Shown piece after piece: positions 28,241-61,658 of a stretch of 64,000 bases of DNA. The DNA comes from Diatrype stigma. Taxonomy: Eukaryota; Ascomycota; Sordariomycetes; Xylariales; Diatrypaceae. The notes beneath the pieces were generated by a model. That model was not told the DNA's origin, ran no database searches, and was given only the letters and a program-made list of their open reading frames with translations. The stretch is from assembly GCA_022225965.2 (NCBI GenBank), contig JAKJXP020000053.1, forward strand, positions 1 to 64,000, given 5' to 3'. The position numbers were made by a program, and so were the translations under genes. Positions within the stretch are counted from its first letter, which is position 1, and the number at the start of each line of letters is the position of its first letter.

Positions 28241-28391
28241 GCCCGGTTAGCTCAAGTAGGAAATCCCCCAACTCGCTTTCTCATGAGCAAATGACTAACC
28301 TATATGCATAGTCGGTAGAGCGCAAGACTCTTATTCCATCTCTGGATCTGAGCTAATCTTGAGGTTGCGGGTTCGACCCCCGCATCGGGCT
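28241..28391 (+). tRNA. tRNA-Lys(CUU) with anticodon-loop intron and a 56-nt D-loop insertion
   Basis: The cloverleaf folds completely when two segments are removed. The acceptor stem GCCCGGT (28241-28247) pairs with ATCGGGC (28384-28390), discriminator T at 28391. D stem GCTC (28250-28253) pairs with GAGC (28318-28321). The anticodon stem CAAGA pairs with TCTTG, with anticodon CTT at 28330-28332. The T arm is GCGGG TTCGACC CCCGC. A 22-nt intron (28334-28355) sits after position 37, the usual eukaryotic tRNA intron site. A second 56-nt segment (28256-28311) interrupts the D loop between AA and TCGGTA. It begins GTAGGA, has ACTAAC 13 bases before its end and ends CATAG, like a fungal spliceosomal intron. 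It splits the Pol III A box; the B box is intact. A run of seven T (28435-28441) could terminate Pol III. The decoded amino acid is certain if spliced; expression is uncertain. Confidence 0.85.
28256..28311 (+). other. GT...AG intron-like insertion in the tRNA D loop
   Basis: 56 bases, with unique boundaries because neither end base matches the neighbouring tRNA base. Its length, 5' GTAGGA, CTAAC-type branch motif (28294-28299) and CATAG end are those of an ascomycete mRNA intron. Removal restores the canonical GCTCAATCGGTAGAGC D arm. Confidence 0.7.
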
Positions 28392-28434
28392 CAATTCCCG
28401 ATGCATCTCATCAAGCGAGATACTTCGAATTCAA

Positions 28435-28441
28435 TTTTTTT
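28435..28441 (+). terminator. Possible Pol III terminator
   Basis: Seven T residues on the coding strand, about 44 bases after the tRNA 3' end. Oligo-T tracts end Pol III transcription; the distance is rather long. Confidence 0.45.
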
Positions 28442-39503: not shown

Positions 39504-39554
39504 CGGGGGGGGGGGAATNNNNNNNCACCCCCCCCCCCCCCCCCCCCCCCCCCC
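39467..39554. other. Assembly gap flanked by poly-G and poly-C
   Basis: A G-run (39467-39515, one C inside), then AAT, seven N (39519-39525), then a C-run (39528-39554). It is most likely a sequencing or assembly failure at a G-rich tract, not biology. The true length is unknown. Confidence 0.85.
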
Positions 39555-61379: not shown

Positions 61380-61658
61380 TTATCGGGCAGTGGCTGTTGC
61401 ATATAAAGACGTCACAATAATCATCCACCTGTAACGTCCCCGTCTACGGGCAGTAGGGAACCCCGTGTCTATTAAAATTGCAACCAATATAATGCTTAGG
61501 ATAAGGTAAGACGCAATTGCAATTTCGTAGAATGGACCTACTGCGGTAATTTCTGCCTCGCCTTTTAGAACGTCGTCCGCTTGACAGTTGATGGTTGGAG
61601 GGCAGGGGGGGGGGGGGGGGTAAAACCCATATGAAGGTTGTGTAAAGCNNNNNNNNNN

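Follow-up and report, generated by a model that had tools for sequence, protein, structure and literature searches.

Can a tRNA gene transcribed by RNA polymerase III carry an intron meant for the spliceosome? This question is raised by a tRNA-Lys(CUU) gene on the forward strand of the window, by which we mean the whole stretch of 64,000 nucleotides analysed here, part of contig C53 of a genome of 48.98 Mb in 224 contigs. For a 56-nt segment in the D loop of this gene the first-pass annotation had offered three options, namely an unprecedented spliceosome-type intron in a Pol III gene, a maturing ectopic tRNA intron, or an insertion that disabled the gene. We infer with considerable confidence that we are dealing with spliceosomal introns in working Pol III tRNA genes, both splicing and function being read from the DNA sequence.

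A doubly interrupted tRNA-Lys(CUU) gene

All features described here lie on the + strand. Exon 1 (tRNA positions 1-15; 28241..28255) is the same as in four intact genes and is followed by the D-loop intron (28256..28311), a 56-nt segment of the GT-AG, spliceosome type with a homologue on contig C59. It opens with the 5′ splice site GTAGGA (28256..28261), the identical hexamer being found in the C59 copy. The branch site ACTAAC (28294..28299, branch A at 28298) lies within GCAAATGACTAACC, which is common to the C53 and C59 introns, and the 3′ splice site TAG (28309..28311) was read from the sequence; 13 nt separate the branch A from the last G. Exon 2 (positions 16-37; 28312..28333) and exon 3 (positions 38-73; 28356..28391), both delimited with ARAGORN and the intact genes, flank a 22-nt intron at the canonical 37/38 position, directly after A37 (28334..28355), which is the expected substrate of the tRNA endonuclease. 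The B box GGTTCGACCCC (28370..28380) is found 109 nt downstream of a hybrid A box, TAGCTCAAGTAGG (28248..28260), to which the exon gives the first part and the intron donor gives the GG. Alignment and folds place a 3′ trailer of two hairpins followed by ACTTCGAA at 28392..28429, and this is common to all six Lys(CUU) genes of the genome. By its sequence, a T7 run at 28435..28441 is a probable Pol III terminator.

Once both segments are taken out, ARAGORN draws a complete cloverleaf tRNA-Lys(ctt) of 73 nt plus the next base. On unspliced window DNA the same program did not find the Lys tRNA, returning either nothing or a false 478-nt tRNA-Ser. The first-pass annotation had placed the two segments at 28256-28311 and 28334-28355, and these coordinates are exact, their removal giving a perfect tRNA identical to the four intact genes. 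Its description of the first segment as 56 nt long, starting GTAGGA, with ACTAAC 13 nt from the end and CATAG at the end, was likewise borne out in full. By inspection, moving the GT-AG border of the D-loop intron breaks the match to the uninterrupted genes. The cloverleaf after splicing, the A and B boxes and the T-run are all present, as they are in the Lys gene on C59. On the best reading of these features, the window gene holds two introns of different kinds, a putative U2-type intron in the D loop and an ordinary tRNA intron at 37/38.

Six Lys(CUU) genes, two of them interrupted

The 15-mer at the 5′ end of the window gene occurs at six places in the genome. An anticodon-arm pattern occurs at 12, and six of these are Lys(CUU) genes, the same six as the 15-mer places. 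Four of the genes are uninterrupted (C12, C40, C122 and C170), each holding the whole 73-nt spliced sequence. A second interrupted tRNA-Lys(CUU) gene, at C59:144242-144367, lacks the 37/38 intron and carries a 53-nt insert (C59:144257-144309) at the same D-loop site, homologous to the window intron and diverged from it. Removal of either Lys insert restores the tRNA of the intact genes exactly. Alignment of the two introns over 56 columns gives 36 matches, 17 mismatches and 3 gaps, and two blocks are fully conserved, the initial GTAGGAA and the GCAAATGACTAACC that surrounds the branch site. We also considered, and rejected, an introner-like repeat, as the window intron with its flanks matches two places only, both of them Lys genes (E <= 10; very common words skipped).

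The trailer varies among the six genes over the region equivalent to 28382-28441. Its first hairpin takes in the 3′ end of the tRNA itself (28382-28389), GCATCGGG pairing with CCCGATGC, and shows one change in C40. In C59 both sides of the second stem are changed, from ATCTC/GAGAT to ACCTG/CAGGT. CTTCGAA and the T-run follow the second hairpin, and the variant CCTTCGAA is found in two of the six genes (C40 and C122).

A count of other Lys(CUU) genes had been put forward beforehand as a possible refutation, and four intact copies do exist. Therefore, the window gene need not be essential, and both interrupted genes could be dispensable, given the four uninterrupted ones. This is the best footing for a rival reading in which an insertion disabled a Lys(CUU) gene that was later duplicated, the Arg gene described below having met a similar fate. 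It can also appeal to a 2014 review, part of which states that eukaryotic D- and T-arm insertions mostly affect one of many synonymous genes and are supposed pseudogenes (PMC4090602). We nevertheless regard dead copies as improbable. Exon decay of the kind expected in pseudogenes is absent from the Lys genes, all 73 exon sites being identical in the six copies. Over 53 aligned sites the introns show 17 differences; at that rate some 23 differences would be expected in the 73 exon sites, and the probability of none is near 5e-13, although some of this exon agreement may be due to gene conversion between the six Lys copies, which would weaken this argument from rates. Moreover, the fully conserved parts of the intron include the splice signals, and no damage is seen in the trailer hairpins, the T-run or the cloverleaf. 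The earlier suggestion of a gene disabled by insertion is thus weakened, both by identical exons around diverged introns and by an Arg gene for which no other copy was found.

An interrupted tRNA-Arg(CCU) gene

The Arg gene in question is a tRNA-Arg(CCU) gene on contig C1 (C1:127921-128044), a low-scoring Rfam tRNA match (30.5 bits) with a 52-nt insert in its D loop. The insert follows G19, runs GTAAGTTGC...GCTAACCAAAGTTCCAG and occupies a site that differs from the Lys site. Its signals are the donor GTAAGT, the branch sequence GCTAAC and the acceptor CAG. Because the gene was reached via its 3′ half and not via intron motifs, the donor and branch site constitute independent support. The spliced C1 sequence is drawn by ARAGORN as a complete cloverleaf tRNA-Arg(cct) with a 3-bp D stem, and the unspliced sequence is missed or misread; A and B boxes and a T-run are present. 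When folded to minimum energy, the spliced Arg tRNA does not adopt the cloverleaf that ARAGORN draws. The acceptor was set so that the D arm closes, there being no uninterrupted Arg(CCU) copy for comparison. An AG 6 nt upstream would yield a 46-nt intron and a longer D loop, and the border can slide by one base.

No other Arg(CCU) tRNA was recognised by eye among 4 + 4 pattern places, read from the anticodon on, in searches that allowed anticodon-loop introns of up to about 59 nt and required a standard B box; this also speaks against dead copies. Of 4,705 codons counted over ten of the window's reading frames, 34 are AGG, a codon that tRNA-Arg(UCU) could likewise decode; one gene for the latter was noted, on C59 (L033).

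Splice signals of the three inserts

All three D-loop inserts start with GT, end with AG and contain RCTRAC, namely ACTAAC, ACTAAC and GCTAAC in C53, C59 and Arg, with 13, 11 and 12 nt, respectively, from the branch A to the last G, inside the 6-36 nt from the acceptor taken as the range for a U2-type branch site. For comparison, a segment was taken to pass a signal test if it starts with GT, ends with AG and holds RCTRAY 3-36 nt before its end. Random segments of matching length, taken from the window and the fetched loci, passed in only 84 of 400,000 cases (0.02%). ARAGORN lists 26 introns in the fetched loci, none of which passed; several are mis-parsed, three of these in the very genes under study.

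No usable mRNA-intron consensus could be derived de novo from the window, where a search scored 238 hits vs 288 in the reversed control. Therefore, three urease mRNA introns of the window and published frequencies were used instead. By eye, the urease introns begin GTAAGT, GTAAGT and GTGAGC. In Fusarium, part of a study of 2,022 introns gives GTAAGT as the donor consensus, with G at +4 in 4% and A at +6 in 14%, CTRAY in 91% and a pyrimidine before AG in 93% (PMC5677156). For Xylariales (Hypoxylaceae) introns, GURWGY is the donor used in a passage of PMC9024468. Set against GTRWGY, the Arg donor GTAAGT fits and both Lys donors, GTAGGA, deviate at +4 and +6. Judged by the Fusarium frequencies, the Arg intron is typical throughout, and the Lys introns depart from the norm only in their donor.

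A donor site that may complete the A box

The first-pass annotation had the insertion splitting the A box and asked how such a gene would be transcribed. The box is indeed split, at A15, directly after which the Lys intron begins; however, it is re-formed by the intron itself. GTAGG places a GG three bases past the exon's TAGCTCAA, so that TAGCTCAATCGG is replaced by the hybrid A box TAGCTCAAGTAGG, and this fits the pattern TRGNNNARN1-3GG. Three bases precede the GG in the hybrid box, compared with one or two in the presumed nuclear genes that match; not every fetched tRNA gene matched the pattern. In the Arg gene the intron lies beyond an intact A box. The distance from the end of the A box to the B box is 109 nt in C53, 84 nt in C59 and 83 nt in the Arg gene, and Pol III should tolerate such distances.

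Rare as GTAGGA is, both Lys copies have retained it, in keeping with a second role in supplying the GG of the A box. The simplest explanation of so rare a hexamer would be that the promoter holds the Lys donor to GTAGG. The Arg donor, its intron following an intact A box, would be free to be GTAAGT.

Junction structure and predicted folds

The D-loop inserts might alternatively be ectopic introns that the tRNA endonuclease removes, a type found in Cyanidioschyzon merolae and in cryptomonad nucleomorphs; D-arm introns do exist in those algae, according to passages of two papers (PMC4090602, PMC9602550). We consider this unlikely to a greater degree than dead copies. At the three pairs of D-loop junctions, 1, 1 and 2 of the 4 positions of an archaeal-type BHB helix pair, which is about chance. 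Among 1,000 sampled structures each, a BHB-like core helix appeared at the D-loop junctions in 0, 0 and 0.1%, compared with 80-99.7% for four canonical introns, in a test of limited power in which a score of 0 was also obtained for the 22-nt 37/38 intron of the window gene. In that case the modelled anticodon loop probably pairs with the intron instead. Even in the control L031, core and outer helix occurred together in only 23-26% of samples. By this modelling the D-loop inserts are probably not tRNA-endonuclease introns, and the earlier option of a maturing ectopic tRNA intron loses ground, no BHB being found at the junctions within the limited power of the sampling. Moreover, that option would leave GT-AG plus RCTRAC in all three inserts unexplained.

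The spliceosome-type option is favoured because it concerns two Lys paralogues and an unrelated Arg gene, with conserved signals and no BHB. For both Lys precursors that retain the D intron no cloverleaf is predicted, and in the predicted fold of the corresponding Arg precursor the acceptor, anticodon and T arms are kept. Without the D intron and with the 22-nt intron, the window precursor is predicted to form a cloverleaf in which anticodon-loop bases are paired to the intron. As the precursor of the window gene folds as a cloverleaf only after removal of the D intron, these models suggest that D-loop splicing precedes ordinary tRNA splicing. For C. merolae, a passage of PMC9602550 has the D- and T-arm introns supposedly removed before the anticodon intron.

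The predicted folds of the two Lys precursors that retain the D intron, together with the structured trailer common to the six Lys genes, would suit loci that now make a retained-intron Pol III RNA with another role and no tRNA. However, every Lys exon site is unchanged while the intron diverges outside the splice-signal blocks, and we hold this reading to be very unlikely. An assembly or read error is scarcely credible: no sign of one was seen, the window's 17 N lying at 39519-39525 and 61649-61658, both >11 kb away, and it would have to have struck on three separate contigs, at loci whose introns are partly related and partly independent, and to have left exactly the intact-gene tRNA at both Lys loci.

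Census and other observations

In a general Rfam tRNA search, 63 of 1,714 candidates were scored, giving at least 55 matches. A census of standard B boxes with CTAAC or CTGAC upstream of them turned up, by eye, D-loop introns at 2 of 19, 1 of 22 (first 80 letters) and 0 of 16 places. Further cases may exist in the genome. Many CTAAC matches upstream of B boxes were rejected by eye, being 5′ flanks (CTAACAA) or CTAACAT D arms of Glu(CUC). Neither the Lys nor the Arg gene had a match in viral, bacterial and archaeal contig collections, a result uninformative on fungal relatives.

The search also brought up several families with tRNA-like features. An RNA-like multi-copy family (L067, L072, L101 and further places) measures 191-224 nt in three read copies. 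Its tRNA-like ends GCCAGGTTGGTG...GACCCAGGTTCGATYCCTGGACCAGGC are followed by a T-run and it contains a second, internal B-box-like GGGTTCGATTCCCTG. A second RNA-like family (L087, L093), of 184-188 nt in two read copies, has the form GGTCCGCAGGTGTCGTTGGTACGCAC...ACCAGGTTCGATTCCTGGGCGGACT plus a T-run. By their ends, L074 and C11:158264 join this second family, L074 as a diverged relative. Neither family has an Rfam match above the cut-off. Moreover, 17 fetched weak tRNA matches (L039-L046, L049-L057) are one dispersed AT-rich repeat with a tRNA-like core, which looks like the product of repeat-induced C-to-T mutation (RIP).

Within the window, the - strand at 51746-52034 matches Rfam RF02514, the 5′ ureB antisense sRNA, with 112.9 bits, opposite a fungal urease gene (~50.7-53.5 kb). 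We take RF02514 to be a family of Helicobacter origin, and the match most likely reflects protein-coding conservation and not an RNA. The seven N at 39519-39525 stand between a G-run and a C-run, adjoin a subtilisin-like gene and resemble a scaffold gap with low-complexity edges. Lastly, its proteins put the window near Xylariales fungi: the closest named match of its threonyl-tRNA synthetase is from Monosporascus cannonballus (80%), below three further matches at 82-84% and ahead of Hypoxylon and Daldinia species. Hypoxylaceae presumably belong to the same fungal order (Xylariales) as the fungus of the window.

Proposed maturation and its implications

We hypothesise the following route for the window Lys gene. 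TFIIIC would bind the hybrid A box, made of exon 1 and the intron's GTAGG, together with the normal B box, and Pol III would transcribe the gene. The spliceosome would then remove the D-loop intron in the nucleus, upon which the cloverleaf could fold. End trimming would fall to RNase P and RNase Z, and removal of the 37/38 intron to the tRNA endonuclease and ligase. The same route would apply to the Lys(CUU) gene on C59 and to the Arg(CCU) gene on C1, the sole Arg(CCU) gene found. Here we infer transcription, spliceosomal removal, the order of the steps and the function of the product.

A further-reaching proposal, which we hold with somewhat less confidence but still think rather likely, is that in this fungus the spliceosome is obligatory for making nuclear tRNAs, including the only Arg(CCU); that D-loop introns were gained at least two times independently; and that the donor in the split A box has been shaped for both U1/U6 and TFIIIC. 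On this proposal the window gene would depend on two unrelated splicing machineries, most likely acting in a set order.

Should the introns be spliced, the spliceosome would work on Pol III tRNA precursors, and decoding of AAG and AGG could be limited by mRNA splicing. Intron gain would then extend to genes that a standard tRNA finder misses, ARAGORN having been correct for 0 of 3 in unspliced DNA. Moreover, these genes would offer a natural test of a donor site and a Pol III promoter that share bases, and a small, clean system for intron gain.

Comparison with known systems

Part of a 2026 review treats tRNA splicing as spliceosome-independent and separate from mRNA splicing (PMC13149111), and none of the literature matches listed reports a nuclear tRNA gene with a spliceosomal intron. 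Canonical 37/38 introns are like the second intron of the window gene and the introns of other tRNA genes in this genome; they differ from the D-loop inserts in position and signals. The ectopic introns of red algae and nucleomorphs resemble the present ones in that D-arm introns occur and some genes have two or three introns, as passages of PMC4090602 and PMC9602550 describe. In C. merolae, however, BHB motifs seem to be the endonuclease determinants, according to part of PMC4090602, whereas here BHB was not found and the signals are of the mRNA-intron type. The stwintrons of Hypoxylaceae come from Xylariales, for which many sequence-similar introns are described, as excerpted from PMC9024468; the window intron, in contrast, belongs to no repeat family, its matches with flanks being the two Lys genes.

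Two further parallels come from other structured RNAs. According to part of a 2017 study, frequent interruption is known for no small structured RNAs other than U3 and U6 (PMC5832005). Its passages on U3 snoRNA describe normal spliceosomal introns, mostly in the 5′ half, with intron-plus and intron-minus copies coexisting in eight genomes (PMC5832005). Fungal U3 is thus like the present case in having spliceosomal introns in a structured RNA and interrupted alongside uninterrupted copies. It differs in that the host is not a tRNA, and in that introns of U3 paralogues are almost always very similar, by the same passages (PMC5832005), whereas the two Lys introns are well diverged. Fungal U6 genes carry spliceosomal introns gained several times, to go by the title of Canzler 2016 as cited in PMC5832005. 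In this genome no intron was found in U6, a single match (C103:111417-111512) covering the whole 105-position model. Of the "unprecedented spliceosome-type intron in a Pol III gene" of the first-pass annotation, the spliceosome type is therefore the part we favour, and "unprecedented" has to be given up, the fungal U6 case being known from the portion of PMC5832005 cited here. In both U6 and the present genes the intron lies inside a small structured Pol III RNA; the host is U6 there and a tRNA here. On this reading the kind of mechanism is known, and it is the host RNA that is new.
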